Shown: in pieces, positions 2,121-57,729 of the stretch
Layout: the number at the start of each line of letters is the position of its first letter
Numbering within the stretch: the stretch's first letter is position 1
IMG/VR virus record: IMGVR_UViG_3300045971_000438
Coordinates: 1-64,000 of that record
DNA: 64,000 nt
Source: a virus
Direction: 5' to 3' (one strand)
Position numbers and translations under genes: made by a program
The notes under the pieces: model-generated
The model's database searches: none
What the model was told of the DNA's origin: nothing
Seen by the model: the letters and a program-made list of their open reading frames with translations, nothing else

Positions 2121-2129
2121 CAGGATTTT

Positions 2130-4215: not shown

Positions 4216-4219
4216 TGCA

Positions 4220-8942: not shown

Positions 8943-8944
8943 TT

Positions 8945-10116: not shown

Positions 10117-10170
10117 TCGGTTATTCCTTTAGTTATAAAATTTGTTTTGAAAACAGCATTAACAGTGATA

Positions 10171-10271
10171 GTTAAAACCTGTAAAATAAGCCACTAAAAA
10201 CGTTGCTGGTGGCACGAAAGCAAATAAACCAGCATCAGTGTATTACTTATAAAATTATCTCAGCTTAAACG
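10171..10271 (+). repeat. intergenic repeat E1 (about 100 bp family)
   Basis: This segment aligns over its whole length with E4 (reverse complement of 53069-53171): TAAAACCTG, TTTAAGCC/ATAAGCC, CAAATAAAC, TCAGTGTATT, ATAAAATT and TTTAAACG recur in order. Stems GCCAC/GTGGC and GCTGG/CCAGC in E1 become GCCGC/GTGGC and GCTAG/CTAGT in E4, which are compensating changes and would form an interleaved (pseudoknot) pairing. E1 is inverted relative to E2-E4. Confidence 0.6.
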
Positions 10272-10450
10272 TTAATTTTTTCAATTAGTGTCATTTCAAG
10301 ATCATCAAAATAAATCTTTAGATTACTTTCATTAATAACTATTTTTAAATTGTGATACTTCCCATCATTAAAAATCCAACGTTCTATAGTTTCTGAAACT
10401 GTATAAGAATAGGGTTCCAAATCTTCGTTAGTATCTTTAATCATTTTCAT
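10265..10450 (-). CDS. hypothetical protein
   Basis: A 61-residue acidic protein overlaps the end of the HNH gene by 14 bases (ATG 10450, or ATG 10444). No recognised domain. It is the only frame between endonuclease copy 1 and repeat E1. Confidence 0.4.
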   Translation of the reverse strand: MKMIKDTNEDLEPYSYTVSETIERWIFNDGKYHNLKIVINESNLKIYFDDLEMTLIEKINV

Positions 10451-16068: not shown

Positions 16069-16804
16069 TAATATCCACCTTATAATTTATCATTGCTGAT
16101 AGTATATCTGGATCTATTGTATCCTTAAATACATTTGCTAGTCTTTTAGCTTCAGCCTCTTTAGCGGCTTTATAAGCTAAATAAGCTTCTTGTTGTGTTT
16201 TAAAATAACCAAGATGTTCTTGTTTTCCTTTAATCCTGCAACTAGCCCTATATGGTGTTGATGTACCTTCATAATAATTGACTCCAATACAACACTCACC
16301 TCTACTAGCATTACTTTTTTCTAAAAAATTATTCACTTCTTGTGGTACTAAACGACATGTTTCTGGTGAATAGATTTTATTACCTTTAATAAGCCAATCT
16401 TTGTCCAGTTGGTAATTTAAATCAGAACCAAACATGAGTAAGTAATCATGAGCGAAGTTTTGAAAACACAACCATCTTTCACAAACAGTACAATCTTTAT
16501 AAGTAAGTTGTTTTTTCTGTGTAAATTCTGAATAACATCTTCGTAACATAGCAAGCCAACAATTATAAATTCTTAGATGCGACGTACAAGAATAATTTCC
16601 AATTCCAATAAATCCAATTCCATAAAATTTAAGACTTGGGTATTTAACATAACCATTTCTTAAAGCACCAGCTTCACAAGTCGTTTCAGCCCCATCTTCA
16701 AATCTGACTCTTACATTGTGAGCATTTATATACTCTATAACAATGCAAGAGCCAGATTTGTTTGTTTTAAAGGCGTCACCAACTTTAATAGAAGGTAAAA
16801 GCAT
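16061..16804 (-). CDS. HNH/AP2-like homing endonuclease, family copy 2
   Basis: This 247-residue member of the family has the same three-part layout (KVGDAFKTNKSGSCIVIEY; CTVCERWLCFQNFAHDY; NYQLDKDWLIKGNKIYS; GYFKTQQEAYLAYKAAK). It is inserted exactly between the DUF932 gene (TAATG overlap at 16802-16806) and the SbcD-like gene (8-base overlap), so both flanking genes stay intact and coupled. Copies 2 and 3 share NYQLDKDWLIKGNKIYSPET, which suggests they are closely related. Confidence 0.75.
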   Translation of the reverse strand: MLLPSIKVGDAFKTNKSGSCIVIEYINAHNVRVRFEDGAETTCEAGALRNGYVKYPSLKFYGIGFIGIGNYSCTSHLRIYNCWLAMLRRCYSEFTQKKQLTYKDCTVCERWLCFQNFAHDYLLMFGSDLNYQLDKDWLIKGNKIYSPETCRLVPQEVNNFLEKSNASRGECCIGVNYYEGTSTPYRASCRIKGKQEHLGYFKTQQEAYLAYKAAKEAEAKRLANVFKDTIDPDILSAMINYKVDIND

Positions 16805-24859: not shown

Positions 24860-25574
24860 CGGTGCGATTCATTAGAGCTATATAAGCTCTTGGATCTATA
24901 GTATCTTTATAAACATTGGCTAGTCTTTTAAATTCAGCCTCTTTAGCTACTTTATAAACTTGTCTAGCTTCTTTTTCTGTTTTATAAGATCCAAGACGTT
25001 TTAATCTTCCTTCAATATGACATCTAGCCACATACGGATTTGGCTTACCTTCAACATAAGTAACTCCGAGGATACGTTCACCTCTACTAGAATCACCTTT
25101 TTCTAAAACATAATTTATTTGTGGTGGAACTAAACAACATGTTTCCGGTGAATATATCTTATTTCCTTTAATAAGCCAATCTTTGTCCAGTTGGTAATTT
25201 AAATCTGAACCCACCATTTGTAAATAATCATGGCAAAAGTTTTGAAAATTAAACCATCTTTCATCTACAGTACAACCACGATAAGTAGGCCGTTTTAATT
25301 GAGCAGCTTCGTGATAACATCTTTTTAACATATAAATCCAACAATAATAAATTCTTGGATGTGATGTACAAGAATACTCCCCAATACCAATAAATCCAAT
25401 ACCAAAAAATTTAAGTTTTGGGTTTTTAACTCTACCATTTCTTAACTGACCCGCTTGACAAATTTTTTCAGTTCCATCTTCAAATCTGACTCTTACGTTA
25501 ATAGCAGAATTATACTTTATAACAGTACAAAAACCAGATGTATTCGTTTCAAACCTATCTCCAACTTTAATCAT
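24843..25574 (-). CDS. HNH/AP2-like homing endonuclease, family copy 3
   Basis: This 243-residue member has KVGDRFETNTSGFCTVIKY, CTVDERWFNFQNFCHDY, NYQLDKDWLIKGNKIYS and RLGSYKTEKEARQ. It is placed between the sliding clamp and the polymerase and overlaps the polymerase start by 17 bases, so the polymerase ribosome site lies inside the endonuclease gene. CTVCER reads CTVDER here, so one putative metal-binding Cys is not conserved. Confidence 0.75.
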   Translation of the reverse strand: MIKVGDRFETNTSGFCTVIKYNSAINVRVRFEDGTEKICQAGQLRNGRVKNPKLKFFGIGFIGIGEYSCTSHPRIYYCWIYMLKRCYHEAAQLKRPTYRGCTVDERWFNFQNFCHDYLQMVGSDLNYQLDKDWLIKGNKIYSPETCCLVPPQINYVLEKGDSSRGERILGVTYVEGKPNPYVARCHIEGRLKRLGSYKTEKEARQVYKVAKEAEFKRLANVYKDTIDPRAYIALMNRTVDIGD

Positions 25575-28294: not shown

Positions 28295-28894
28295 TCAGCA
28301 CGTTGTTTTAGTTGAATTTTTACAGGTTTTATCGTGTACTTCATAATTCATTAAAACAATATAAACTCTTGAATCAAGATTCTTTTTATACATACGAGTT
28401 ACTCTTTTTATTTCAGCTTCTTTAGCATTTTTATAAGCTAAAAATGCCAATTCAATTGTTGGAAAATGACCTAATGATTTATTCTTTTTATTAATGTAAC
28501 AAAGAGCCCTATAAGGGCTCTTTGTTCTATTTGACCAAGATACTCCAATTGGAAGATTATTATTTTTACTCTTATAACATGTCATAATGCAGTTCAGTTC
28601 TTGGGGCAGTAATACACACGTATCTTTACTATAGATTTTATTATCTTTAATAAGAATATCTTTGTCAAGTTGCCAATTTAAATTAGAACCATTCATAGCT
28701 AGATAATCATGACAAAAATTTTGAAAATTATGCCATCTTTCATCTACTGTACAACCAATGTAACTCTGTTGTTTATCTTGAACCTTTTTAACATAACATC
28801 TAAAGAGCATTGTACTCCAAGTAAAATAGATTCGTCTATGAGACACCGACGAATATTGGCCTTCTCCAAGAATACCTACACCATGTGCTGCCAT
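28295..28894 (-). CDS. HNH/AP2-like homing endonuclease, divergent short copy 4
   Basis: This 199-residue protein lacks the N-terminal beta domain of the other copies and begins at the segment equivalent to residue about 58 (GVGILGEGQYSSVSHRRIY). It keeps CTVDERWHNFQNFCHDY, WQLDKDILIKDNKIYS and an AP2-like end (PYRALCYINKK..SLGHFPT). It carries a different C-terminal tail (HDKTCKNSTKTTC). It lies 2 bases after the ligase stop. It is the most divergent family member and may be degrading. Confidence 0.65.
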   Translation of the reverse strand: MAAHGVGILGEGQYSSVSHRRIYFTWSTMLFRCYVKKVQDKQQSYIGCTVDERWHNFQNFCHDYLAMNGSNLNWQLDKDILIKDNKIYSKDTCVLLPQELNCIMTCYKSKNNNLPIGVSWSNRTKSPYRALCYINKKNKSLGHFPTIELAFLAYKNAKEAEIKRVTRMYKKNLDSRVYIVLMNYEVHDKTCKNSTKTTC

Positions 28895-30095: not shown

Positions 30096-30830
30096 TTAAT
30101 CATTAAATTCTACTACACGATTCATTAAAGCAACATATACTCTTGATTCTAATAAATTTTTGTAAAAATTAGCCAGTCTTTTAAATTCAGTTTCTTTAGC
30201 TACTTTATAAGTTAGATATGCTTCTTGTTCTGTTTTGTAAGAACCAAGATATTTATATTTTCCTTTAATACTACATTGAGCTATATATGGATTTATATAA
30301 CGTTCATCATAAGTAACTCCAATACGAAATTCACCTCTATTAGCATTACATTTTTCTAAAACATTATTTATCTCTTGTGGTACTAAACAACATGTTTCTG
30401 GTGAATAGATTTTATTACCTTTAAATAATATATCTTTATCCAATTGCCAATTTAAATCTGAAATCATCATTAGTAAATAATCGTGACAAAAATTTTGAAA
30501 GTTCCACCATCTTTCACAAACAATACATCCAATATAAGATTGTTGTCTTGATTGAGTTTCTAAATCATAACACCTTCGTAACATTTGAAACCAAACCATA
30601 TAAATTCTTGGATGTGATGTACGAGAATAATTTCCTACGCCAATATAACCAATTCCAGAAATACTAGGATGATTTGGATTTTTAACATGACCTCCTCTTA
30701 AATTACTTGCTTGACAAATTATTTCAAATCCATTTTCAAATCTAACTTTCACATTTCTTGAATCTATAAATTCTATAACAGTACAAGATCCATAATTATC
30801 CGTTTTAAAAACATCTCCAATTTTAATCAT
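30096..30830 (-). CDS. HNH/AP2-like homing endonuclease, family copy 5
   Basis: This 244-residue member has KIGDVFKTDNYGSCTVIEF, CIVCERWWNFQNFCHDY, WQLDKDILFKGNKIYS and KYLGSYKTEQEAYLTYK. Its start overlaps the previous small gene by 8 bases; downstream is the ligase promoter rather than a coupled gene. It shares WQLDKDILFK with copy 7, so these two may be recent relatives. Confidence 0.75.
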   Translation of the reverse strand: MIKIGDVFKTDNYGSCTVIEFIDSRNVKVRFENGFEIICQASNLRGGHVKNPNHPSISGIGYIGVGNYSRTSHPRIYMVWFQMLRRCYDLETQSRQQSYIGCIVCERWWNFQNFCHDYLLMMISDLNWQLDKDILFKGNKIYSPETCCLVPQEINNVLEKCNANRGEFRIGVTYDERYINPYIAQCSIKGKYKYLGSYKTEQEAYLTYKVAKETEFKRLANFYKNLLESRVYVALMNRVVEFND

Positions 30831-35518: not shown

Positions 35519-35620
35519 TGTTTTAAGCGTGTTTAAATTTCAACGGTTATCAGTGCATAGCTATGTTTAAAACTAAGCTTAAAACGCATTTTTAGTGGTT
35601 ATTTAACGGGATTTTCAGTC
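35519..35620 (-). repeat. intergenic repeat E2
   Basis: Read on the minus strand it shares AAAATCCCGTTAAATAACC..TAAAAA and flanking TTTAAGC elements with E3, E4 and E1. GTTTTAAGC near one end and GCTTAAAAC inside are inverted copies. It fills the gap between the KTSC gene and endonuclease copy 6. Confidence 0.5.
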
Positions 35621-36349
35621 ATCAATATCGACTACGCGATTCATTAGTATTGTATATATTTCAGGATCTAAATCATCTTTAAATAAATTACCTAACCTTT
35701 TAAATTCAGCTTCTTTAGCTGCTTTATAGGCTAGCCTAGCTTCTTCTTCTGTTTTGTAACTACCAAGGTACTTTAATTTTCCTTCAACGTTACAAGCAGC
35801 TTTGTATGGATTTGTTTTACTACCAGAAGGAGAAACTCCAATACGAAATTCACCTCTACTAGCATCACTTTTTTCTAAAACAGTGTTTATCTGAGGTGGA
35901 ACTAAGCAACAAGTTTCTGGTGAATATAGCTTGTTTCCTTTAATACGAAGATCTTTGTCTATTTGCCAAAATAAAGCAGATCCAAACATTGATAAGTAAT
36001 CAGGAGCAAAATTCTGAAAATTCCACCAACGTTCACATACAGTACAAGCACTATAAGTAGGCCATACACCTCTAATAGTTTCATTATAACATCTTCGTAA
36101 CATCTGAATCCAACAATTATAAATTCTTGGATATAATTTACAAGAATAATTTCCAACTCCAATAAATGCAATACCATAAATAATTGGATGATTTAGATTC
36201 TTAACCTGACCATTTCTTAAAGCGCCAGCATTACAAATTTTTTCAGTCCCATCTTTAAATCTAATTTTTACATTGTTATAATCTATATATTCCATAACAG
36301 TGCAATTACCAGATTTATTTGTTTTGAATACATCACCTATTTTAATCAT
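35615..36349 (-). CDS. HNH/AP2-like homing endonuclease, family copy 6
   Basis: This 244-residue member has KIGDVFKTNKSGNCTVMEY, CTVCERWWNFQNFAPDY (Pro replaces the usual His), WQIDKDLRIKGNKLYS and KYLGSYKTEEEARLAYK. Its ATG overlaps the stop of the helicase C-terminal gene (ATGA 36346-36349). The His-to-Pro change in the HNH-like region may affect catalysis. Confidence 0.75.
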   Translation of the reverse strand: MIKIGDVFKTNKSGNCTVMEYIDYNNVKIRFKDGTEKICNAGALRNGQVKNLNHPIIYGIAFIGVGNYSCKLYPRIYNCWIQMLRRCYNETIRGVWPTYSACTVCERWWNFQNFAPDYLSMFGSALFWQIDKDLRIKGNKLYSPETCCLVPPQINTVLEKSDASRGEFRIGVSPSGSKTNPYKAACNVEGKLKYLGSYKTEEEARLAYKAAKEAEFKRLGNLFKDDLDPEIYTILMNRVVDIDD

Positions 36350-37479
36350 GCTGTCTCCTTTATTAAAGCTTTTGCCTGTGTTACTACTTTTGGTGCAAGA
36401 GTTTTACCAAGGAGTTGTATAACTTTGTCTTTGTTTTCAACTATATCTTCTAAAGTTTTTATTCCAGCAGCATCCAACTTCTTGGCTTTCACTATTCCAA
36501 TTCCATCTAACGAAACTAATTCGGCTAGACCGGCTCTGACACCATGTTTTACACGGAGTGCAATAATAGTTAGTTCTTTAGAACTCTCCCAACCAAATAA
36601 TCCATTCATCCACGTTAATGCTCCAATTATTCTATCAATATCAGATCGTAATTGTCGTGAGTAAATATGGATTCCTTCTTGTTCAGTTAGAACATCATAT
36701 AAATCTGCAGCAATAGTACTTTTAGTTATAGATTTTGATACTAGTTGAGGAATTGTATCTAAAACAGCTTCAGAATAATTCTCAACGAATTCTATATCTT
36801 TAGCAGCTATATAACCAGCCTGCATACTTGGAGTTGTTCCAAGAGTATAGGAAATAGCCAAATCACTAGACCAGAGATTATGATTATAGATATTCATAAA
36901 ATTCATATACCAATGAAAAACATCTCTTGGATAAAAATAAAGAGTAGCACTTATTTTACCTAACGAAGTAATCTTAAACACACCAGTATCTGTAAGTGTT
37001 AACATTCTTATTTTAATAAGATCAGCTAATACTTGATCTATAAACCCATCTTCTAATTTTAACTGAATAGCTGCCAATGATCTTAAAAACCAATGTCTTA
37101 GTGTTTCCCTATTCCAAACCTCACCATTGGATATTTCAGCCAGTACATGAAATCCTAAAATGTCACTGTTAATCAAAGTAGATATGATATTTCGTGGATT
37201 ATTTATTTTATATTGCCATGAAGAAACATTATCACAGATAAAATAACAACGACCTATATCAGACCAACCTAAACGACCACAACGTCCAGCAGCCTGCAAT
37301 ATATCTAATTCATCTATTTGACTAAGACCACGTGTGTTACCTACAATAATAACATTGGTAGCACAGGTGTTGCAGTTATGTGTTAAGATTTTATTAGCAA
37401 AAAAGTTATGGTTCTTTTCTACAGATAAGTCTATATGGATATTTTCTGATTTTCGCTTCACAATAGATGTTATTTTCAT
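36346..37479 (-). CDS. Ski2/Hel308-like helicase, C-terminal part with split-intein C fragment
   Basis: Residues 1-35 are the C-terminal fragment of a split intein (block F/G: FFANKILTHN, followed by Cys36). From Cys36 the host protein continues: CNTCATNVIIVGNT, QAAGRCGRLGW (motif VI), a winged-helix/ratchet-like region, and a terminal helix-hairpin-helix (LVSLDGIGIVKAKKL). It joins the N-terminal part at LAWG (residue 947 of that protein) to restore LAWG-CNTC. The reconstituted helicase after removal of both inteins would be about 848 residues. The first 74 bases overlap the endonuclease gene at 37406. Confidence 0.85.
   Translation of the reverse strand: MKITSIVKRKSENIHIDLSVEKNHNFFANKILTHNCNTCATNVIIVGNTRGLSQIDELDILQAAGRCGRLGWSDIGRCYFICDNVSSWQYKINNPRNIISTLINSDILGFHVLAEISNGEVWNRETLRHWFLRSLAAIQLKLEDGFIDQVLADLIKIRMLTLTDTGVFKITSLGKISATLYFYPRDVFHWYMNFMNIYNHNLWSSDLAISYTLGTTPSMQAGYIAAKDIEFVENYSEAVLDTIPQLVSKSITKSTIAADLYDVLTEQEGIHIYSRQLRSDIDRIIGALTWMNGLFGWESSKELTIIALRVKHGVRAGLAELVSLDGIGIVKAKKLDAAGIKTLEDIVENKDKVIQLLGKTLAPKVVTQAKALIKETA
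37375..37479 (-). other. split intein, C-terminal fragment (35 aa)
   Basis: The 35 residues end with His-Asn before Cys+1 (ILTHN then C) and carry VEKNHNFFA, matching intein blocks F and G. The length matches the about 37-residue C fragments of gp41-1-type split inteins. Confidence 0.85.
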
Positions 37480-38323
37480 AATTTTTTAATATTTTTTTAA
37501 TTTCAATTTGGAATTTATTAAGAACAGCTTGTGGAGAATCTTTCCTATAATTAAAAGGAATTCTTATAACATGCCATCCTAATGATTGTAAAAATAAATC
37601 TTTTCTATTATCACTTTCTATTTTTTCAGGACTTGAGTGACATATATCTGAATCTATTTCAATAGCAATTTTAAATTCAAGAATAGCAAAATCTATACAA
37701 TATCCTCTATGACATTTACCATTATTATCAGGTTCAGGATAATTAAAATCTATTTTAAAAGGTAATTTAATAATGTTTATCCAAGAAATTATTTTCTTTT
37801 CAAATTTACTAGGCTCTTGATACATACCAAGATAATGCCAAGCTGTATGTTCACGTTGAAGTTTTTTTGATTCTTCAGTATGTTTTTTCCCATAAAAATG
37901 ATTATCTTTACCTGATTCATTTTCATTTTTTACACGTCTTGGGAATGTTGGAGTATTTTGATAATGGGCTTTCATTGTCTTGCTTATCTGTTGTTTTGTT
38001 TCATTTGTTTGTGCAGGTCTTAATGCAAAAGATGCTTTCATTTTTAATGAAAATTCTTCTGTTTTCCAAAGTTCTTTATTTTGTAAATTACGCTCTTTAA
38101 CTTTGTCAGGATTAGCTTTGCAATAGGCTTTTGAAGTTTCTCTTTTATTATCTTTCCATTTTTGACTAACTAAAGGAGCGTTAGGATATTTAACTTTGTA
38201 TTCAGTTAATTTATATCCATGCGTAAAAAATAAATGTCCATTAGTTATTTGTTTACATTGTTTACCACATTCTCTACAAGAGATTGTTTCATATGTATCA
38301 TTTTCAAACATTAGCTTCACCAT
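37406..38323 (-). CDS. Vsr-like homing endonuclease between split-intein halves
   Basis: This 305-residue protein has an N-terminal Cys pair region (CRECGKQCKQITNGHLFFTHG), two NUMOD3-like DNA-binding repeats (NETKQQISKTMK; GKDNHFYGKKHTEESKK), and a C-terminal Vsr/PD-(D/E)XK fold domain: E175, D211 (YCIDFAI), EID (222-224), H229, R240/D242 and LGWHVIRI. It lies between the two fragments of the fractured helicase, 31 bases after the N fragment and overlapping the C fragment by 74 bases. This matches the fractured-gene arrangement reported from metagenomes, in which a Vsr-related nuclease separates split-intein genes. Confidence 0.85.
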   Translation of the reverse strand: MVKLMFENDTYETISCRECGKQCKQITNGHLFFTHGYKLTEYKVKYPNAPLVSQKWKDNKRETSKAYCKANPDKVKERNLQNKELWKTEEFSLKMKASFALRPAQTNETKQQISKTMKAHYQNTPTFPRRVKNENESGKDNHFYGKKHTEESKKLQREHTAWHYLGMYQEPSKFEKKIISWINIIKLPFKIDFNYPEPDNNGKCHRGYCIDFAILEFKIAIEIDSDICHSSPEKIESDNRKDLFLQSLGWHVIRIPFNYRKDSPQAVLNKFQIEIKKILKNYENNIYCEAKIRKYPYRLICRKEP

Positions 38324-38354
38324 TAGCTTACCTTAGGATTAGCTTACATTAACA

Positions 38355-41300
38355 TTAACTAAAATCAGTGTCAAGATTAAACAAATCTTCTTCCCCTGTA
38401 AGATTTTGTGCTTCAATTATTGAAAAAGAATTATCTTTATTTTTACAATAAAAAGGATGTTTTCTATCTACAATTATTGTTTTTCCATTTTCTAATGTAA
38501 TAACAAACTCATTAATAGGTCCATATTCTAAGACATTAAGAATATTATCTTGTTCTAAATATCCTTGTTCATTCCAAGATAAAATTTCATCATTGATTTT
38601 AATATCTTTAGCTAATTTTTCTGTCCCATTAGACATAGTTACTAATGTATCTTTTGATACAGAACCCCATGCCAAACCGCTGGTGGAAATTAATACTTGT
38701 AAAGATTCTTTAGTATTTTCAGCAAAATCTTCTAAAAATTGTGTTCGGGAACTCATTTCTAAATCAGCATTATAAAATAAACAATCAATTTCTTGATCTT
38801 TAAATTTAGATTCAAGCATCCGTCCAGTATTTTTATCATGTACGAAGATTAGTGTTTTCTCATTTGGATTTTTATAATAACATTCAAGAGCTAGATTCAA
38901 TTTATCTTGCTGTTGGTCAGCATATCTTAAAGATGTGTCATATTCTAATAAATTCCATTGAATAACAGTGGGTCTCCAATTATTATTTATTACTTCTGTC
39001 GGTTTACCGTTTAGTGTTGTAAGCCAAGTCTTAAATTCAGATACATTTGGCATAGTAGCAGATAGCATCAATATCTTAGCTGATGGTACTAACTTTGAAA
39101 ATCGCATGATTCCTACTTCAAGTGCATGTCCTCTATTTGTAGTAAGAAGTGATGATTCGTCGGTAATTATCAGCCCAATATCAAATAACCAATCTGATTT
39201 TTCAGATTTATAATTTCGTGAACGGGAGTTATGTAACATAATTCCACCTTGTCCGCCAATCCAATTTTGTATTGGGTATGAAACATTTTTAGGTTGTATT
39301 TCAAGATCATATACAATATCTTTTCTTAAAAATTCTATACTTTTAATTTTGACAAAATGTAAATGTGGATTGAGATTGTTTCTTTGTCTTGGGTTATTTT
39401 CATTAATTCGTATATCCCATGTTAAATATTCTTTATCTTTGTATATTCTAGTATTTTTTATTACAAAACTAAATCTTCCAACTAATAGTGTTAAATTTTG
39501 AATATCTTTAGATAGTTGAAAAGATGCTGTTCTAAAAAGATGTCTATTTTTACTTGAGTTATCAAAAAACCCATCACCGCAAAGCATTCCATTTAAAAAG
39601 GATTCTATTTTAGATGCTTCCCAAGTAAAAACAAAATCAGGAATAGATTTTTCACGAGATAATCCACCAAACAAATGTCCTATGTATTGCCATAAAACTG
39701 AATTCACATGCAGTGTGTGTATTATTCCACCAATAGGTCTAATATCTGTTTTTGAAGTAATATTACCACCAAAAACTTTTTGTGCCCGTTCTAAAAATTG
39801 TAAGTTGTCATTTTTTTGCTCTATGGTTAATCTTGGGCCACGAACACAGCATCCATCAGCAACAAAAAATCCCAATGCCCATGCTAGATCATTGTCAACT
39901 TCAATTTTTGCTGGAAATTCTAATTTAGAATGATATGCTTTTACTTTTTTCATTTCATTTATATCTAATAAACCTAATCTAAATGAATTTTCAAGTAATA
40001 TTAATGGGAGATAACCTCGTTTTCTCCAATCATTTATTCTTTGTGTTGTCTTACTTAGACGTTCGTTTTCATATTTTATTGATGGGACTGCGCTAATTAA
40101 ATAAAAATCATTTGAAAAAAGATTTAGTATTTTATCACTTGTGAAAAATGTTCTAGTTTTATTTACTATAGGTAAATCTAATAACAGTTCAGCAAACGGA
40201 ATTATAGATTTAGTTGCTAAAGTTTCAAATCCAGTACTTATAGCAACTTGATCTTTTTCTATATCAATATCTTTTAATATTTTAGGTATTAGTTTCTTTG
40301 TAGTTTTATCTAAGATAAATAAATTATGGCATTCTGTCATTTCAACAGATCTTCCTCCAATTAAAGATACTTTATAAATATCTTTTGGTTCTATTTTAAT
40401 TCTTCCAGTTATTTCAGTCGGTAAGATTCCTTTTCCTTCATGGTAAGAAAATACTTCACAATCAATATTATCTTCAACTATGTTACCAATACAGTCTTTC
40501 CAAACATTGCCGTTTTTATAACAATAAAGCTCAGTTTCGTATGGATACGAGTCGGTCATTTCTGATGTACAACAAATAATATCAGCTTCGTTTAGTTCTT
40601 TAGCTTTTGTTTCTGTTAGAACAAAGTCTCCAGTTAAAATACATATTTTATAATCTTGTCCAAATGATTTAGTCCAGTCGTTAAATTTTTCAAGAGTTAA
40701 TGCTTTTAATGGTGAGACATAACAAATCTTCTTTTTGTGTACTTTTAATGTTTCCCAAACAAATAATTCAGCAGATATAGTTTTTCCTGTTGATGTAGCT
40801 GTTCCTAATACTAAGTTACAATCTTGATGCCAATAACCGTGTTTTAAAATTGTGGATTGCACACGATTGAATTGCTTAAATCCATATTTAAAATGTGGAA
40901 AATAATTATTTAAATAACAATCTTCAATCTCAACTAAATCTGTCATCATTTCTTTTGATGCCAAGTCTTTTGTTGGTTTATAAACAGGTTCAATAGAACT
41001 TTGTACCGATTTAATTGTCGAATTTAAAGATCTTAAATGATGTTCTGTTTTTGTACCACAGTTAGGAAATGCAGCACAACCCATGAATTTTACACCTGTA
41101 GCTTTAACAGTTCTTTCAACGGTATAAGAACCACATTTTTTACAGAATATAATCTCATTAGATATTTTAATCAGATTATTTACTCGAAGAGTTATTCTTT
41201 CAAATACAGTAGTGTTACCCTCTGTTCGTAATACTTTAGGTTCCTGACATATAATTTTATTTGCAATAGTGTCGTATAAAATGTTACGAATGGCGTCTTC

Positions 41301-41504
41301 ACCAATATCTCTGGTTTTGCCAGTACCATCAACAGTGGTATAGATATGTATTTCAAGTGAAGGTTTAGATTTTAAAGTGGCACAGATGACTAACTCTGTT
41401 CCTCTCTTTGGAAGTTTAAATTCCCATTTTAAAAAATCGTGTTGAGGAGTAAAAAAAGTATCTGCCCAGTTTTCAAATTGATCTTTTGTTAGAGCAACAA
41501 ACAT
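38355..41504 (-). CDS. Ski2-like helicase, N-terminal part with one full intein and split-intein N fragment
   Basis: Extein order: a domain with a topoisomerase-type zinc ribbon (CKKC..., C143...C149), Walker A GTATSTGKT (234-242), YVSPLKALTLEKF (motif Ia), intein 1 (319-759), then ITDESSLL (motif II as DESS rather than DExH), MLSATMPN (motif III), a second RecA domain, and LAWG (944-947). The split-intein N fragment (948-1049) follows to the stop. It is a superfamily 2 helicase of the Ski2/Hel308 kind. Two independent protein-splicing events are needed to make the working enzyme. Confidence 0.85.
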   Translation of the reverse strand: MFVALTKDQFENWADTFFTPQHDFLKWEFKLPKRGTELVICATLKSKPSLEIHIYTTVDGTGKTRDIGEDAIRNILYDTIANKIICQEPKVLRTEGNTTVFERITLRVNNLIKISNEIIFCKKCGSYTVERTVKATGVKFMGCAAFPNCGTKTEHHLRSLNSTIKSVQSSIEPVYKPTKDLASKEMMTDLVEIEDCYLNNYFPHFKYGFKQFNRVQSTILKHGYWHQDCNLVLGTATSTGKTISAELFVWETLKVHKKKICYVSPLKALTLEKFNDWTKSFGQDYKICILTGDFVLTETKAKELNEADIICCTSEMTDSYPYETELYCYKNGNVWKDCIGNIVEDNIDCEVFSYHEGKGILPTEITGRIKIEPKDIYKVSLIGGRSVEMTECHNLFILDKTTKKLIPKILKDIDIEKDQVAISTGFETLATKSIIPFAELLLDLPIVNKTRTFFTSDKILNLFSNDFYLISAVPSIKYENERLSKTTQRINDWRKRGYLPLILLENSFRLGLLDINEMKKVKAYHSKLEFPAKIEVDNDLAWALGFFVADGCCVRGPRLTIEQKNDNLQFLERAQKVFGGNITSKTDIRPIGGIIHTLHVNSVLWQYIGHLFGGLSREKSIPDFVFTWEASKIESFLNGMLCGDGFFDNSSKNRHLFRTASFQLSKDIQNLTLLVGRFSFVIKNTRIYKDKEYLTWDIRINENNPRQRNNLNPHLHFVKIKSIEFLRKDIVYDLEIQPKNVSYPIQNWIGGQGGIMLHNSRSRNYKSEKSDWLFDIGLIITDESSLLTTNRGHALEVGIMRFSKLVPSAKILMLSATMPNVSEFKTWLTTLNGKPTEVINNNWRPTVIQWNLLEYDTSLRYADQQQDKLNLALECYYKNPNEKTLIFVHDKNTGRMLESKFKDQEIDCLFYNADLEMSSRTQFLEDFAENTKESLQVLISTSGLAWGSVSKDTLVTMSNGTEKLAKDIKINDEILSWNEQGYLEQDNILNVLEYGPINEFVITLENGKTIIVDRKHPFYCKNKDNSFSIIEAQNLTGEEDLFNLDTDFS
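38358..38663 (-). other. split intein, N-terminal fragment (102 aa)
   Basis: It begins at Ser948 (SVSKDTLVTMSNG, block A) directly after LAWG and contains block B as ITLENGKTIIVDRKHPFYC. It ends at the stop codon without an endonuclease domain. Ser as residue 1 and Cys as +1 are permitted splice residues. Confidence 0.85.
39228..40550 (-). other. LAGLIDADG intein in helicase (441 aa)
   Basis: The intein runs from Ser319 (SYPYETELYCYKNG, block A) to Asn759 (block G: GGIMLHN, then Ser+1). Block B is VSLIGGRSVEMTECHNLF. Two LAGLIDADG helices are visible: LGFFVADG (544-551) and LNGMLCGDG (637-645). Removal restores SEMTD-SRSRNYKS in the helicase just before motif II. Both catalytic acidic residues are present, so the homing activity could be intact. 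Confidence 0.85.
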
Positions 41505-46058: not shown

Positions 46059-46157
46059 TGTTTTAAGCACTGTTTTATTAACTTATGTCAGTATATCAAG
46101 CCAGTTGCTTTCTAAGCTTAAACAGCGTTTTTGGCGGCTATTTTAACAGGGTTTTAG
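46059..46157 (-). repeat. intergenic repeat E3
   Basis: On the minus strand TAAAACCCTGTTAAAATAGCCGCCAAAAACGC matches the corresponding parts of E1 and E2, in segments of up to 12 bases, and GTTTAAGCTTAG is shared with E2. It lies between endonuclease copy 7 and the gene at 45825. Confidence 0.5.
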
Positions 46158-46888
46158 TCGTTTGGTTCGACCACATAATTTATTAAAGCTAAATACACTT
46201 TTAGATCTAACTGATCTTTATAAAAGTTTGCTAATCTTCTAATTTCAGCTTCTTTAGATACTTTATAAGCTAGATATGCTTCTTGTTCTGTTTTGTAATA
46301 ACCAAGATATTTATTTTTTCCTTTAATACTACATCGAGCTTGATATGGATTTGGTTTACCTTCATAATAAGTAACTCCAATACAACATTCACCTCTATTA
46401 GCATCACGTTTTATTAAAAGTTTATTTATTTCTTGTGGAAGTAAACAACATGTTTCTGGTGAATATATCTCATTATGTTTAAAAAGTATATCTTTATCTA
46501 GTTGCCAATCTAAATCTGATCCAAACATTTGTAAATAATCATGAGCAAAGTTTTGAAAATTCCACCATCTTTCACAAACAGCACAACCAATATAAGAAGG
46601 TTGTTTTAATTGAGTATCTTCGTTATAACATCTTCCTAGCATAGACTTCCAACACTTATAAATTCTTAAATGTGTTTTAGGAAAATAAATTCCAATTCCA
46701 ATAAAACCTATATTACAAACACTAGGATGATTTGGATTTTTAACTAGACCATTTCTTAATTGGCTTGCTTGACAAGTTGTTTCAGTCCCATCATCAAATC
46801 TGACTCTTACATCATTACAATCTATATACTTTATAACAATACAAGAACCAGAACTATTCGTTTCAAATCTGTCACCTACCTTAATCAT
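46154..46888 (-). CDS. HNH/AP2-like homing endonuclease, family copy 7
   Basis: This 244-residue member has KVGDRFETNSSGSCIVIKY, CAVCERWWNFQNFAHDY, WQLDKDILFKHNEIYS and KYLGYYKTEQEAYLAYK. It starts 7 bases after the small gene at 46896 and runs into repeat E3 at its 3' end. Confidence 0.75.
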   Translation of the reverse strand: MIKVGDRFETNSSGSCIVIKYIDCNDVRVRFDDGTETTCQASQLRNGLVKNPNHPSVCNIGFIGIGIYFPKTHLRIYKCWKSMLGRCYNEDTQLKQPSYIGCAVCERWWNFQNFAHDYLQMFGSDLDWQLDKDILFKHNEIYSPETCCLLPQEINKLLIKRDANRGECCIGVTYYEGKPNPYQARCSIKGKNKYLGYYKTEQEAYLAYKVSKEAEIRRLANFYKDQLDLKVYLALINYVVEPND

Positions 46889-46895
46889 TTTTTAC

Positions 46896-47159
46896 CTATA
46901 AAACCTGAACAATGTTAAAATGAAAGCTTATTGTTTCTACAATAAACATTCTATGATTCATGAAAAGTTTAGTCTTAGGATCCCAAACAGAAGTCAAATT
47001 AAGAGTATCAGTTTTATTCTTTATATCACGAAGTATCTCATGGTAAGATACTTTATCAATGTATATGTAGAATTTTATATCTGTTTGGTTTGGATTGTTT
47101 TTTAATACTCTAGCTGTATCAGCACAAATCCTATTATAAAGATCATAAAATGTTATCAT
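46896..47159 (-). CDS. hypothetical protein
   Basis: An 87-residue protein overlaps the Ro gene stop by 4 bases (ATG 47159), so it is probably co-translated with Ro. No recognised domain. Its coupling to Ro makes it a candidate partner or regulator. Confidence 0.5.
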   Translation of the reverse strand: MITFYDLYNRICADTARVLKNNPNQTDIKFYIYIDKVSYHEILRDIKNKTDTLNLTSVWDPKTKLFMNHRMFIVETISFHFNIVQVL

Positions 47160-48775
47160 AATAGTGAGAAAGAAGATATTACAGCTGGAGTATTACTATC
47201 AAAACCAACAACATCTAACATATTGCTATCTAATGGGTCTGCTATTGTAAATCCATTTGATTCCATAGCAGTAACAATTAATTTAGCATTAGGTTTATTC
47301 ATAATTGTGCGGTATTTCTTAAGTAGCGTACTAGGATGTGATCCCTGATTTACTTCATTATCAGTATAACAAACAAATACATCCACATCCAGTTTATTGT
47401 CTATAGCGTATTCAAACATCAACCCTATATTGGTAGATCCAAAACTGGTATTATTTAATACATCAGTAACTTCTTTAAGACTCATAGTCTCATTTATAGC
47501 TAAAGGTTGTATCACGTTATGAAATCCAAGAATATAACATTTAGGTTCTGCTTTAATGGTAGTCATGGCAAGAACAGCAGAAGCAACTCTTGGAGTAAAT
47601 CCTGGAATACCACCAATATTGTTCCATGACATGGATGCCGACACATCTATACATAGTAAGTATTTTTTATTTGTGGGTTTAATATTTTCAAAGGCCATAT
47701 AAAATGCTTTTTCAAGAGCAGTAACAATTCTATTTTCAGGATTCCAAATTAAGTTACCTTTTAAACCTCTACCTGATTTATAGATATGGTAAGCCATTAA
47801 AATTTGTATAGGATGTTGACGAGAACGTTTAAGTTCTTCTTCATTGGTAATTCTACCAATAATATAATCCACATTATCAGATAAAGGTTTTATATAACCA
47901 TTAGCAGTAAGAACACCTAAATTACGCATCATGGCATCATACGGACTGTTTTTGATTAAAGAAGCCCAAATTTCTGGAATCTTCAACCAATCAGTAGGAA
48001 TCATCTCCCTAGTTAAACCATAGCAATCAATAGCTTCTTTCTTTTCAGAAATAGTTGTTAGATGGTCATACTGAAACGCTAGTTCATGTCCCACTAATAT
48101 TCGTAATTCTTTATTAGCGCAATTTAGTTGGAAAGGTTTTTTAACAGCCCATGCAAAAAGGGTATTAATATCTTTGTTATCAGTCTTTGGTTTACAAAGA
48201 CGAAGTACGTCTCGATGTGACCAACCATTTCTTGATTGGTATTTAACCAGTTGATAGGCTAATTTTGAAACATCTAAATCCAAATACCAGTTTTTAAGAG
48301 CATCAGAAAATAGTCTACCCCGACCACGGAAGTATTTAGAGTATTCAACAAAAGCAAACAAATGAGTTCCAATTCTACAAACCTCATTTAGTTTAGATAG
48401 TGCATATTTTCTTGTTTCTTTATTATCAACACTACCAGCATAAGCAAGAGCAAATATACAAGTTTCGTTTTTAAGACAACGTCCTTCAGTTGAAATGTTG
48501 ACAATAAGATCAATAGTTTCAATAGGATGTTTGAAGAGAGCTTTGTCTAAATCACTTACATTGTCTTTTGTAAGCTTTTTTTCTTTGACATAGTAGGTTC
48601 CGCCAGTTGTACCAAGAATAAGAAACCGTTCTACTTGTTTAAGTAATGGAGTTTCAAATATAAACCCACTTGTGTTATTTTCTACCATATCTGTACGACC
48701 AGCAATAGGTCTATCTACAGGTTGGTCGCCAACTATTTTTTTATGGGGGACGTGCTGCTCAAATTTGAAGGCCAT
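47156..48775 (-). CDS. Ro60/TROVE-domain RNA-binding protein (Rsr-like)
   Basis: TROVE-domain features run from about residue 40 to 360: the hallmark GRGRLFSDALKNWY, LAYQLVKYQSRNGWSHRDVLRL, and DAMMRNLG, followed by a von Willebrand A-like domain with an intact metal site (DVSASMS). Ro proteins are ring-shaped chaperones that bind Y RNAs on the outer surface and misfolded RNA ends in the cavity; bacterial Rsr works with PNPase in RNA decay. I start at ATG 48775 (AGGA 9 bases upstream); ATG 48784 is too close to the site. Directly upstream is a 1-kb structured non-coding region with tRNA-like modules and its own promoter. This strongly suggests a phage Ro-Y RNA system. Confidence 0.88.
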   Translation of the reverse strand: MAFKFEQHVPHKKIVGDQPVDRPIAGRTDMVENNTSGFIFETPLLKQVERFLILGTTGGTYYVKEKKLTKDNVSDLDKALFKHPIETIDLIVNISTEGRCLKNETCIFALAYAGSVDNKETRKYALSKLNEVCRIGTHLFAFVEYSKYFRGRGRLFSDALKNWYLDLDVSKLAYQLVKYQSRNGWSHRDVLRLCKPKTDNKDINTLFAWAVKKPFQLNCANKELRILVGHELAFQYDHLTTISEKKEAIDCYGLTREMIPTDWLKIPEIWASLIKNSPYDAMMRNLGVLTANGYIKPLSDNVDYIIGRITNEEELKRSRQHPIQILMAYHIYKSGRGLKGNLIWNPENRIVTALEKAFYMAFENIKPTNKKYLLCIDVSASMSWNNIGGIPGFTPRVASAVLAMTTIKAEPKCYILGFHNVIQPLAINETMSLKEVTDVLNNTSFGSTNIGLMFEYAIDNKLDVDVFVCYTDNEVNQGSHPSTLLKKYRTIMNKPNAKLIVTAMESNGFTIADPLDSNMLDVVGFDSNTPAVISSFSLL

Positions 48776-49062
48776 AATTTTCATTCCTTAATAGGATAAG
48801 ATAAAAAGACCGTCCTTCCTACATTCCCATAGTTCACGGATCGGACTTATTTACTTAAGGTAATATTTTTTCCTTTGTAAGGTTTAAAGAATATGATACC
48901 TTCTCAGCCAGTCATGCCCGTCTACTCACACTTCAGTAGCAGAACACTGTTAGTAGAGCATATACCTCACCTTGACAGTAACAAGGGCTACATTTGTTTT
49001 GCTGTAGCTTACATAGGTTTCTAAACCATTAGCCGTCTAACGCTCAGGCAGCGGGAATAGGG

Positions 49063-49156
49063 TGTTGCTGTTCCGAATCGAACGGAATAAGCAAAATATA
49101 AAAGGAAAGGTGGCAACCTGCCATATTTAAACTTTAGAGTCATTACTCACAGCAAC
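49063..49156 (-). ncRNA. tRNA-like module 2 (no anticodon arm)
   Basis: Acceptor-like stem GTTGCTG/CAGCAAC (7 perfect pairs) is contiguous with a T arm TTCCG-TTCGATT-CGGAA whose loop fits TTCRANY. The D region is abnormal (GAGT-AATG-ACTC), and in place of an anticodon arm there is an AT-rich stem (AAATAT/ATATTT) holding a GGCA/TGCC hairpin. It starts 3 bases after element A. Confidence 0.6.
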
Positions 49157-49159
49157 AAA

Positions 49160-49227
49160 AGAGCAAGTTAAATAAGATTCGGAGGAGTCATTTTCAAAGA
49201 AGTGATAACCAAATCTAATTCAGCTCT
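49160..49227 (-). ncRNA. repeated hairpin element A
   Basis: This 68-base element shares AGAGCTGAA at its start, GGTTATC in the loop and AACTTGCTCT at its end with element B. The inner stem is AGATTTGG/CCGAATCT here and GACTTGG/CCAAGTT in B, i.e. sequence changes with pairing kept. The outer stem AGAGC/GCTCT is common to both. Candidate Ro-binding module. Confidence 0.6.
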
Positions 49228-49380
49228 AATCCAGTAACAGTTTAGAGTCAATACTGGGAGACTTAAAGTTGCCGTGTATTTGTCCACACACGGCGTGTGT
49301 TCAGGCCAGGTATTTATTTGCGTGAGTTATCGGCACTGACGGTTTCCATCTCACATCCACCAACCACGGAGGATTTAATT

Positions 49381-49442
49381 AGAGCAAGTTATTCAAAACT
49401 TGGAAGGATCATTATGAGGGATAACCAAGTCTTTTCAGCTCT
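49381..49442 (-). ncRNA. repeated hairpin element B
   Basis: This 62-base paralogue of element A has the same outer stem and ends, GGTTATCCC in the loop, and a covarying inner stem (GACTTGG/CCAAGTT). It lies 10 bases downstream of tRNA-like module 1, after a GCTC/GAGC mini-hairpin. Confidence 0.6.
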
Positions 49443-49451
49443 AAATTGAGC

Positions 49452-49576
49452 GGTTACTGGTGGGACTCGAACCTACGACAAACTGTGTTTTGATAATCTA
49501 ATATCATCAGTTCAAAAGAACAAGATTGAATATTAGTATTTTATGACGGCTGTTCTACCGCTGAACTACAGTAACC
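49452..49576 (-). ncRNA. tRNA-like module 1 with insertion in place of the anticodon arm
   Basis: Acceptor GTTACTG/CAGTAAC, TA linker, D arm GTTC-AGCGGTA-GAAC and T arm GTAGG-TTCGAGT-CCCAC (one mismatch) are spaced as in a true tRNA, with a G-1:C73-like pair as in tRNA-His. Between D arm and T arm are 74 bases instead of about 22, filled by a stem CTAATAT/ATATTAG with an inner GTTC/GAAC hairpin. No pairing anticodon stem can be drawn. This is the pattern expected of a tRNA mimic rather than a decoding tRNA. A degenerate tRNA is the alternative. Confidence 0.65.
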
Positions 49577-49790
49577 ATGTTCTTTTAAATAATTTACTAT
49601 GGCTTATTAATTAATTATTTATTTAAAAATTAGAACTGTTTTGATTCTTTTAAGCAAAGAACAAAGACAGCAAACAAGAAGCTTGAATCACAGGGAAAAA
49701 CGGTGAGAAATAACCTGTGATTACTTTATTTCAGTTTCAATCCGCAGCCACACAAGGCTGACTTGGTACTGTTTTTCAGCACCAAAACAT

Positions 49791-49819
49791 ATTATATATT
49801 AAGTGAATTGATAAAACAA
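49791..49819 (-). promoter_or_regulatory. sigma70-like promoter for Ro-associated RNA
   Basis: On the minus strand TTGTTT (49814-49819) is 17 bases from TATAAT (49791-49796). The first stem of the non-coding region begins within about 10 bases of the expected transcription start. Confidence 0.72.
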
Positions 49820-49839
49820 GATGCTATTTAAATTATTAA

Positions 49840-49868
49840 GTAGACCATCCAATAATTGGATGGTCTAC
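49840..49868 (-). terminator. 13-bp hairpin terminator-like element
   Basis: GTAGACCATCCAA and its complement form a perfect 13-bp stem with a 3-base loop, 24 bases after the stop of the Ig-like gene. On the minus strand it is followed by CTTAATAATTT rather than a strong T run. It probably isolates the RNA promoter at 49791 from upstream transcription. Confidence 0.6.
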
Positions 49869-49891
49869 AATAAAGTCTGGATTGCTGAAGT

Positions 49892-50194
49892 TTAAATCGG
49901 AGCAGATTCATTTAAGGTTGCGGAAACAGCTAAAGAAACAGCTTGACCTGCAATAACTTGAACTTCAAGTAAGCCTGCAAGTAGAGCTTCGCCTCCGCCA
50001 ATAAGGGAATCGGCAATAACGTTGATAGTGGCAGAACCTATGCCTACTGGAGTGATTAAGCCTGATGCATCAACGGTAACAACAGCTTCATCTGTACTTG
50101 AGAAGCTAACATTTTCAACTGAAGCTGGATGGCCGTGGGCATCTACTGAACTTATAAAAATTGTAGCGGTTCTATCATCTGGAAGTAATAGTGA
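49892..50194 (-). CDS. Ig-like (BIg2-type) small structural protein
   Basis: From ATG 50194 (AAAGG upstream) the protein reads MSLLLPDDRTATIFISSVDA, then FSSTDEAVVTVDASGLITPVGIGSATINVIAD, typical of bacterial Ig-like 2 folds used as phage decoration proteins. The same frame is open to an ATG at 50332 with its own good ribosome site, which would add 46 unrelated Lys-rich residues; I prefer the shorter form because the domain begins at MSLLLPDD. Confidence 0.6.
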   Translation of the reverse strand, partial: SLLLPDDRTATIFISSVDAHGHPASVENVSFSSTDEAVVTVDASGLITPVGIGSATINVIADSLIGGGEALLAGLLEVQVIAGQAVSLAVSATLNESAPI

Positions 50195-52308: not shown

Positions 52309-53043
52309 CTAATCATCAAAATCTACCTTGTAATCAACAAGAGCTTGGTACACCCGTGGATCAAGCTCTTCTTTATATAAATTTGCCAATCTTTTAATTT
52401 CAGCTTCTTTAGCAGGTTTATATACTAGATATGCTTCTTGTTCTGTTTTGAAACTACCAAGATGTTTTGTTTTTCCTTCAATATTACAACGGGCTTGGTA
52501 TGGTTTTGTTCTACCTTCACGGTACGTAACTCCAATACGAAGTTCACCTCTGCTAGCATCACTTTTTGTTAAAAGATAATTTATTTTAGATGGAACCAAA
52601 CAACATGTTTCTCTTGAATATATCTTATTTCTTTTAAATAATATATCTTTGTCTAAATGCCAATCCAAATCTGAACCCACCATTAGTAAATAATCATGAG
52701 CGAAGTTTTGAAAACTATGCCATCTAATATCTACAGTACATCCAATATAAGTAGGATATTTTCTCTGAATATCTTCGTTATAACATCTTTGTAGCATACA
52801 AATCCAAACCATATAAATCCTTTTATGTGATGTATAAGAATAAATTCCAATTCCAATAAAACCAACACCACTAAATTTAAGACTTGGATATTTAACATTT
52901 CCATTTCTTAAATTTTGGGCTGTACAAATTTTTTCAGCTCCATCTTCAAATCTAATTCTTACATTATTACAATCTATATACTCTATTACAACACAAGAAC
53001 CATAATTATTTGTTTCAAATCTATCACCAACTTTTATTTGCAT
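52309..53043 (-). CDS. HNH/AP2-like homing endonuclease, family copy 8
   Basis: This 244-residue member has KVGDRFETNNYGSCVVIEY, CTVDIRWHSFQNFAHDY, WHLDKDILFKRNKIYS and KHLGSFKTEQEAYLVYK. CER is replaced by DIR in the HNH region, as in copy 9. It is separated from upstream genes by repeat E4 and converges on a structural gene, so unlike most copies it is not translationally coupled. Confidence 0.75.
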   Translation of the reverse strand: MQIKVGDRFETNNYGSCVVIEYIDCNNVRIRFEDGAEKICTAQNLRNGNVKYPSLKFSGVGFIGIGIYSYTSHKRIYMVWICMLQRCYNEDIQRKYPTYIGCTVDIRWHSFQNFAHDYLLMVGSDLDWHLDKDILFKRNKIYSRETCCLVPSKINYLLTKSDASRGELRIGVTYREGRTKPYQARCNIEGKTKHLGSFKTEQEAYLVYKPAKEAEIKRLANLYKEELDPRVYQALVDYKVDFDD

Positions 53044-56994: not shown

Positions 56995-57729
56995 TCAGTC
57001 ATCAATTTCAACCTCATAATTCATTAAAGCTATATAAACTCTTGGATCTAATAAATCTTTGTAAAAATCAGCCAATCGTTTTATTTCAGTCTCTTTAGCT
57101 ATTTTGTAAGCTTGGTATGCTTCTTCTTGTGTTTTGAAATAACCAAGATTTTTATTTTTTCCTTTAATACTACATTGAGACATATAAGGTTTTAATTTAC
57201 CTTCAATATAAGTTACTCCAATCAATAATTCACCTCTACAAGATTCTTTTTTTATTAAAACCGAGTTTATTTGAGATGGAACTAAACAACATTTTTCTGG
57301 TGAATAAACCTTATTATGTTTAAAAAGAATATCTTTATCCAGTTGCCAGCCTAAGTCTGAACCATACATTAATAAATAATCGTGGACATAATTCTGAAAA
57401 TTATACCATCTAATATCTACAGTACATCCAATATAGGTAGTATGTTTTAACTGGACATTTTCGTTATAACATCTTTTTAACATATTTCCCCAACAATTAG
57501 AAATTCTTGGATGTGATATTTTTGAATAAATTCCAATTCCAACAAAACCAACACCACAAACAATTGGATGATTTGGATTTTTAACATTTCCTCTTCTTAA
57601 ATCACCCGCTCTGCAAGACATTTCATAACCATCTTCAAATCTAACTCTTATATTATTCCAACTAATATACTCTATAACAGTACAAAAACCAGATTTAGTT
57701 GTTTCAAATCTATCTCCAACTTTTATCAT
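56995..57729 (-). CDS. HNH/AP2-like homing endonuclease, family copy 9
   Basis: This 244-residue member has KVGDRFETTKSGFCTVIEY, CTVDIRWYNFQNYVHDY, WQLDKDILFKHNKVYSPEKC (Glu-Lys replaces Glu-Thr) and KNLGYFKTQEEAYQAYK. Its ATG overlaps the stop of the upstream gene (ATGA 57726-57729), and a strong terminator follows, so it is the last gene of its operon. Confidence 0.75.
   Translation of the reverse strand: MIKVGDRFETTKSGFCTVIEYISWNNIRVRFEDGYEMSCRAGDLRRGNVKNPNHPIVCGVGFVGIGIYSKISHPRISNCWGNMLKRCYNENVQLKHTTYIGCTVDIRWYNFQNYVHDYLLMYGSDLGWQLDKDILFKHNKVYSPEKCCLVPSQINSVLIKKESCRGELLIGVTYIEGKLKPYMSQCSIKGKNKNLGYFKTQEEAYQAYKIAKETEIKRLADFYKDLLDPRVYIALMNYEVEIDD

Follow-up and report, generated by a model that had tools for sequence, protein, structure and literature searches.

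The stretch of viral DNA considered here (the window) comprises bases 1-64,000 of a 156,133-base virus record, IMGVR_UViG_3300045971_000438, which is possibly incomplete. It carries a gene for a Ro60/Rsr protein and, upstream on the same strand, an array of small RNAs made up of a tRNA-like RNA, TLS1, two Y-only helices, A and B, and a reduced tRNA-like module, TLS2. Judged by its sequence, TLS1 is a tRNA in natural order in which a closed Y helix takes the place of the anticodon arm, and the bacterial Y RNA known as YrlA is the opposite circular permutation. We describe the anatomy of this array, the covariation of its RNAs with their relatives and their linkage to Ro genes, and we predict with good confidence that the locus makes a phage Ro ribonucleoprotein of this composition. 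On a narrower balance, we favour the view that natural-order tRNA-Y RNAs are a class of Ro partner not described before, that they are the Y RNA usually accompanying Ro in cyanobacteria, and that they are present also in Desulfonema, in Beggiatoa-type bacteria and in several phages, often in tandem, and interconvertible with YrlA, which may be a permuted tRNA by descent and not a convergent mimic.

The Ro gene is a complete open reading frame (ORF) of 542 amino acids on the minus strand (47156-48784), with TROVE and vWA domains and an intact metal-site motif, DVSAS. Both domains lie far above their Pfam cut-offs (vWA_Ro60, 1.8e-50 and 171.6 bits, cut-off 27.7; TROVE, 2.4e-34 and 119.7 bits, cut-off 23), which places the protein in the Ro60/Rsr family and agrees with the complete TROVE/vWA protein of the preliminary description. 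PHROG assigns it to PHROG 850, 'RNA-binding protein', and a search of the PDB at E<=0.001 returned three sequences, every one a Ro (1yvp/1yvr/2i91 at 343.7 bits, the 9nen group, and Rsr 2nvo). We take K170, R174 and H187 of Xenopus Ro to be residues that contact Y RNA; the first two align with K181 and R185 of the window protein. About 1.1 kb separates the Ro gene from the next gene upstream, and the region was rightly described earlier as roughly 1 kb of non-coding DNA on the same strand: between 48785 and 49891 the minus strand holds no ORF of at least 50 amino acids and the plus strand holds one, of 50.

TLS1 (49452-49575, minus strand) ends 668 bases before the start of Ro. It has the acceptor (49575-49569/49459-49453), D-stem (49566-49563/49555-49552) and T-stem (49476-49472/49464-49460) of a tRNA, and no CCA is encoded after the acceptor. 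Among the Rfam models to which the preliminary description had pointed, the tRNA model matches TLS1 at 39.7 bits (gathering score 29), with 59 nucleotides standing in for seven anticodon-arm positions of the model; these 59 nucleotides fold as a Y helix, so that TLS1 lacks the anticodon arm of a true tRNA. The other models gave nothing: GOLLD and ROOL are not among the nine Rfam matches at E<=5 in 48600-49950, nor above cut-off in the window, no Y-family model matched the same interval at E<=5, and YrlA (RF02553) neither matched the whole record at E<=10 nor reached its gathering cut-off. ARAGORN made no call over the window.

The presumed Ro-binding helix of TLS1 (the Y helix, 49492-49536, minus strand) is a 'closed' hit of our Ro-helix descriptor, and the same helix covaries in 16 RNAs, as detailed below. 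Read 5' to 3', the insert runs through an 8-bp upper stem (CUAAUAUU/GAUAUUAG), CUU, a 4-bp stem capped by UUUU, a bulged U, GA and then AUUAUC, the lower stem being CUU-GUUC-UUUU-GAAC-U-GA with a closed loop. A helix with a bulge, GA/CUU and GUUAUC is what we take to be the Ro-docking motif of Y RNAs, and the RF01656 consensus agrees with it. This motif occurs three times in the array, and the RNAs that carry it are in that broad sense Y RNAs. Module A (49381-49442, minus strand) is a Y-only RNA without a tRNA body and an 'open' descriptor hit, reading GAGC-U-GA ... GGUUAUC ... CUU-GCUC; module B (49160-49227, minus strand), also an 'open' hit, is a second such RNA and a partial direct repeat of A. 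Their minimum free energies both have a z-score of -2.88, a stability equalled in none of 200 shuffles for A and in two of 200 for B. TLS2 (49063-49156, minus strand) pairs its acceptor, GUUGCUG/CAGCAAC, at 7 of 7 positions and its T-stem at 5 of 5 (T-arm UUCCG-UUCGAUU-CGGAA); neither a normal D-arm nor a Y helix was found in it. Thus the array does hold two tRNA-like modules without an anticodon arm, as had been claimed, one with acceptor, D-arm and T-arm and the other with acceptor and T-stem; the Y helix within TLS1 and modules A and B had escaped notice.

These elements are not expected by chance. In the 1,107 bases of the real sequence the tRNA-like (TLS) descriptor matches twice against a shuffled mean of 0.006, the Ro-helix descriptor matches three times in the array against 0.002, and none of 1000 dinucleotide shuffles reached either count. 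Elsewhere in the window, on both strands, the former matched once (plus strand) and the latter not at all. The minimum-energy fold of TLS1 by itself is not a clean cloverleaf (z -1.88), and the case for TLS1 therefore depends on covariation.

Relatives were gathered by RNA pattern. A pattern drawn from modules A and B returned 25 stretches, namely a twin of the window (L021), viral contig L015, and 23 that were judged by eye, from short prints, to be chance. The Ro of L015 is 58-59% identical to that of the window and is preceded by one Y-only module and three TLS1-type RNAs; a fourth, different tRNA-like module upstream of Ro comes from sequence reading and was not scored by script. A lack of structural conservation of the modules in related phages was one of the refuting conditions named in the preliminary description, and on L015 they are structurally conserved. 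A pattern from four TLS1-type RNAs, holding no protein information, returned 22 stretches from viral contigs and 18 from bacterial genomes. A Ro frame is present within the fetched DNA of 14 of these 40 (a count that includes L015, a source of the pattern, and one contig twice, since L053 and L064, which are equal in length, look like a single one); many of the others are short or chance-like. When 52 motif rows were scored for acceptor pairing upstream (natural order) or downstream (permuted order), 24 came out as natural and 16 as permuted, with 3 ambiguous and 9 fitting neither order. Twenty of the 24 natural rows were kept, L043, L054, L062 and L066 being dropped as doubtful; they come from the window and from L015, L037 and L049 on the viral side, and from Desulfonema magnum, Nostoc sp. 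CMAA1605 and metagenome-assembled genomes (MAGs) of Thiotrichaceae, Parabeggiatoa and Thermosynechococcus on the bacterial side. Searches of viral contigs with the Ro protein found only the contig of L015 and the near-identical L002, which equals the window over 9,626 bases and is no independent evidence.

Sixteen of the 20 natural-order RNAs were aligned, the four with long variable arms being left out, and the alignment was not refined. CTGA and TTAYC each begin at one shared column throughout the 16 sequences, and CU(U/C)G keeps its C, T and G without exception. Over all five helices of the structure that we specified, 93.5% of 479 cells are paired and 22 of 30 pairs change on both sides; none of 500 shuffles equalled either figure. 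The covariation score reaches 0.669, compared with 0.237 in shuffled alignments (none of 500 as high) and falls to at most 0.174 when the partners are slid. Helix 62-67/78-84 is paired at 98.9% in the 16 RNAs and the weakest helix, the upper Y stem, at 79.7%, in part because the spacing of CUUG varies and the alignment is unrefined. The Y-helix motif is shared with the permuted loci caught by the TLS1-type pattern and with the consensus of RF01656, a nematode Y-like RNA.

A model built from this alignment, R1, gives TLS1 95.2 bits, a score that is not independent because TLS1 is among its 16 sequences; it misses TLS2 at E<=1. R1 scores under about 60 bits fail to tell natural-order RNAs from tRNAs; members with long variable arms score only 40-60. 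Seven whole records were searched with R1; five of them are bacterial genomes, for which 150 first-look candidates apiece were scored. Of 20 hits of at least 60 bits, 18 precede a TROVE gene on its own strand, among them second loci, missed by the pattern, in the Thermosynechococcus and Parabeggiatoa MAGs; the other two are close to the end of a contig of 25,741 bases. A pattern restricted to natural order returned 14 stretches, L015 and L049 again and 12 without an R1 hit (E<=0.01) or a Ro frame.

The linkage was also examined in 291 genomes drawn from the class to which the Nostoc genome belongs. With 12 candidates scored per genome, an R1 match at E<=1e-9 was obtained in 51 genomes, and TROVE was detected in 56, all 51 being among the 56, and none of the 235 genomes without TROVE has the RNA (Fisher p 1.4e-51; because related species share history, this value overstates their independence, which leaves adjacency unaffected). 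A TROVE stretch lies downstream on the same strand and contig in 62 of 63 matches, at a median of 412 bases and a maximum of 1,496. The Rfam YrlA model is above cut-off in none of the 291 genomes, 17 of which have a match at E<=1e-4. The class of the Thiotrichaceae MAG was sampled with 185 genomes. R1 matched 26 of these at E<=1e-8, and only the MAG itself exceeds 60 bits; the matches in the other 25 score 53-59 bits and measure 72-73 nucleotides, the size of an ordinary tRNA.

Is TLS1 of natural order, or is it a YrlA? By possession of a tRNA-like domain and a Y helix next to Ro it would count as YrlA. Its acceptor, however, scores 7 in natural against 4 in permuted order, and its upper stem 7.5 against 5, so that the permuted order of YrlA is not found in it. 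The phage Ro ribonucleoprotein with YrlA-like tRNA mimics proposed earlier holds as far as sequence can tell, except that TLS1 is the opposite permutation. In most motif rows the upper stem points the same way as the acceptor; L015a, L049a and L061 favour permuted order and L053 natural order. Tandem natural-order units hold a permuted frame, and weak YrlA matches of 25-30 bits bridge the junctions between them (L071 5885-6000, L049 4083-4216, L063 5060-5179), so YrlA and the natural-order form could interconvert if units were duplicated in tandem and then trimmed. A tree was made of 32 Ro proteins (16 labelled natural, 12 permuted, 4 unlabelled) by a quick method, with weak deep forks; on it the order label changes 3 times against 9.4 when shuffled, and none of 500 shuffles was as low. 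Natural order falls into a Nostoc-class group that includes phage L037, a Desulfonema/Beggiatoa-type group, and a group of the window, L034 and L049; the permuted L053 is drawn as sister of the second of these with support of 88. The permuted labels of L031, L032, L033, L115, L118, L119 and L122 derive from YrlA matches below cut-off (30-51 bits), and that of L120 comes from sequence reading.

We consider it likely that the array RNAs bind Ro. They would share one element for docking on the Ro ring, the Y helix, with each RNA offering a different surface to the phage Ro, a tRNA body in TLS1 and nothing in A and B. Its natural 5' to 3' order would allow maturation of TLS1 by the RNase P and 3'-tRNA processing of the host. 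By analogy with Deinococcus Rsr-Y RNA-PNPase, the leading reading is that the tRNA-like body tethers Ro to a host RNA-processing enzyme or gates its substrates; to this role we give about an even chance, part of the remaining probability being assigned to no role, and decay of structured RNA would then be redirected during infection.

Several observations weigh against this picture or against the breadth of the class. Xenopus H187 aligns with a lysine, K198, in the window protein. In five of the 56 genomes with TROVE, R1 matches nothing at the threshold used; R1 was itself built from RNAs later seen to be at Ro loci, and the partial scoring of candidates in large genomes makes absence less secure than presence. 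Neither RtcB nor an ordinary tRNA was matched anywhere in the record, where TLS1 is the only tRNA-family match at E<=0.01, so there is no sign of an RNA-repair operon or of a role in protecting phage tRNAs.

The tRNA-like RNAs might instead be anticodon-less decoys, stabilised by Ro, that occupy host tRNA nucleases or modification enzymes during infection. PMC7790460 raises the tRNA domain of YrlA as a possible competitive inhibitor of an anticodon nuclease, and generic tRNA mimicry would suit the use by relatives of bodies from different tRNA classes, including those with a long variable arm. Yet modules A and B have no tRNA body, and the same RNAs stand beside Ro in bacterial genomes, for which phage defence is no obvious issue, and we regard the decoy explanation as unlikely, if worth keeping in mind. 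That the array serves mainly as the 5' leader of the ro transcript, with Ro binding the leader helices and regulating its own synthesis, strikes us as quite improbable. The array does lie upstream of ro on the same strand in the loci read in detail, and a terminator scan found none between TLS2 and ro; a leader, however, needs neither whole tRNA bodies whose acceptor and T stems covary nor the CCA that follows the acceptor in some relatives. By reading, a hairpin followed by a run of U lies ahead of ro, and the scan places a terminator-like site inside TLS2.

Two further explanations concern TLS1 itself. Were it an ordinary permuted YrlA misread owing to tandem copies, the permuted frame within tandem units, the weak junction matches in L071, L049 and L063 and the rows whose upper stems favour the other reading (natural L015a, L049a and L061, permuted L053) would all be accounted for. 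The window, though, has a single complete unit with a self-closed Y helix and the natural-order scores given above, and in L063, L071 and L059 distinct acceptors pair within units, which makes a misreading very improbable. We find it hardly credible that a tRNA gene unrelated to Ro, degenerate or carrying an intron, underlies TLS1, as might be supposed from Rfam seeing just a tRNA with a long insert and from the silence of ARAGORN in the window: across 16 RNAs the insert covaries and keeps invariant motifs, the genomes of the sampled class in which the RNA was seen all have TROVE, and no other tRNA-family match occurs in the 156-kb record.

The Ro-docking helix is suggested to be a portable module that tRNA bodies carry in two topologies at the least and probably in three, with a bearing on the origin of bacterial Y RNAs. 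The annotation gap is partly explained, in that Rfam reads a tRNA and ARAGORN calls none; ARAGORN called no natural-order unit in the window or in eight relatives. For phages, the findings point to a transferable RNA-processing tool in a phage whose record has no ordinary tRNA match.

The natural-order RNAs vary in their bodies. Long-variable-arm bodies, which presumably resemble tRNA-Leu, are in use in Nostoc, Parabeggiatoa, Desulfonema and viral contig L049. Desulfonema magnum (L063 4564-5429, minus strand) has five tRNA-Y RNAs in tandem with CCA after each; in the fifth the Y helix sits in the D-loop and a 5-bp hairpin is kept at the anticodon position. L049 has three natural-order tRNA-Y RNAs near Ro (3880-4820), together with two Y-only RNAs by reading, and a separate array of 23 ordinary tRNA genes (8415-11658). 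Plasmid pAQ7 of Picosynechococcus sp. PCC 7002 (L114 2063-2465) has three natural-order units directly before its TROVE gene, and its gene table contains no RNA genes. On NC_010474.1 the units occupy about 163022-163424 of the minus strand, and the TROVE gene is SYNPCC7002_RS15900. The units score 63.1, 57.2 and 44.9 bits with R1, only the first exceeding 60, and their acceptors pair at 7, 6.5 and 6.5 of 7; CUUG was not seen in the first unit. PCC 7002 is a cultured model cyanobacterium and thus a system in which natural-order RNAs can be tested. It was the only one of nine named phage and plasmid loci judged to be of natural order, arrays having been read in four (L114, L115, L116 and L120).

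A blastn search of the array against phages gave five weak matches, three staphylococcal and two to records of Caulobacter phage CcrPW. In the latter (L028, MH588545.1 114393-119420) an apparent array of tRNA-like modules at 2040-3420 has a different repeat, GGTGGCGTAG..TACTTCG, with no RNA annotated. It reaches at most 33.9 bits with R1 and sits upstream of gp146c, a 'hypothetical' protein that is a divergent Ro (TROVE 1.3e-18, vWA_Ro60 2.7e-6). In Rhodococcus phage Trina (L120) a 209-nucleotide pseudo feature 'tRNA-OTHER' (2098-2306), just upstream of Ro, overlaps modules that by reading are permuted and Y-RNA-like; the feature is likely a misannotation. L029 was judged to be chance.

Some candidate transcription signals lie in and around the array. 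Around 49791 a perfect TATAAT and a weak TTG-type -35 can be read; the promoter scan reported nothing on the minus strand at 49791, and its five promoter-like sites are at chance level (shuffled mean 3.7). Between the array and Ro, reading identifies a hairpin, GUCC...GGAC followed by UUUUU (48803-48846, minus strand), a possible end of the array transcript. The terminator scan missed it; the two sites that it found (1.0 in shuffles) include a sole minus-strand site at 49123-49111, the one inside TLS2. A 14-bp perfect inverted repeat (49840-49868, minus strand) is a possible end of the upstream gene. The spacer between A and B (49231-49375, minus strand) contains, by reading, a 7-bp hairpin, GCCGUGU/ACACGGC. 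The array is headed by a solitary CRISPR-repeat-like unit (49734-49762, minus strand), a palindrome with a GGATTGAAAC end that weakly resembles CRISPR-DR9, at 15.7 bits (gathering score 45). It is present in a single copy in the window, allowing up to 3 mismatches, and among viral contigs in none besides the window's twin. RNA anti-CRISPRs exist as a kind, and the unit is possibly one of them, or chance.

Apart from the array, nine similar frames of about 244 amino acids, one of them shorter, were seen by eye in translations scattered over the window (10437-11174, 16061-16804, 24843-25574, 28295-28894, 30096-30830, 35615-36349, 46154-46888, 52309-53043 and 56995-57729). The frame at 46154, the one tested of the nine, matched PHROG HNH endonucleases, and the nine appear to be a multiplied homing-endonuclease-like family. 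At 36346-41504 the translations suggest a helicase-like gene broken up by frames that resemble inteins and homing endonucleases.

Phage Ro genes and phage Y RNAs are already known. Work by Chen in 2014 reportedly placed Y RNAs close to Ro60 in over 250 species of bacteria and phages, each of which has one or more that are tRNA-like, and natural-order cases may be among them. YrlA-type matches lie upstream of Ro in Gordonia phage Cashline, which has a second copy by reading, in Mycobacterium phage LinStu and in Microbacterium phage Pumpernickel (30-42 bits, below the Rfam cut-off of 69). Y RNAs beside Listeria phage Rsr were proposed in 2025 in PMC12282133, and phages with YrlA are mentioned in PMC7765460. 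Hence the suggestion that an array beside a phage Ro gene might be undescribed does not survive as such; what does is the natural order, of which no description was found among the listings and passages covered, a set that did not extend to key Wolin-laboratory work.

According to PMC4726728 and PMC8394870, Ro is a ring with Y RNA bound on its outside, and the Deinococcus Y RNA tethers Ro to PNPase; the bacterial Y RNA 6CU1 is given as a circular permutation of tRNA in PMC11472068. YrlA (RF02553), encoded beside Ro, shares with TLS1 the Y helix and the tRNA elbow of D-arm, T-arm and acceptor. Its chain in the Rfam consensus passes through Ro helix, T-arm, closed acceptor hairpin, D-arm and Ro helix, so that both RNA ends lie at the Ro helix, whereas that of TLS1 passes through acceptor, D-arm, closed Y helix, T-arm and acceptor and has its ends at the acceptor. 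Modules A and B follow the open form of the vertebrate/nematode-type Y RNAs (RF01656), with lower stem, bulge, GA/CUU, upper stem and GUUAUC, but have minimal loops. Compared with tRNA (RF00005), TLS1 keeps the acceptor, D and T arms in natural order without the anticodon arm, and some of its relatives encode CCA or have tRNA-Leu-like bodies. In the tRNA scaffold used for RNA expression in E. coli, the RNA of interest is carried in the anticodon arm of a tRNA. The layout of TLS1 resembles that scaffold, except that TLS1 is natural and tied to Ro.

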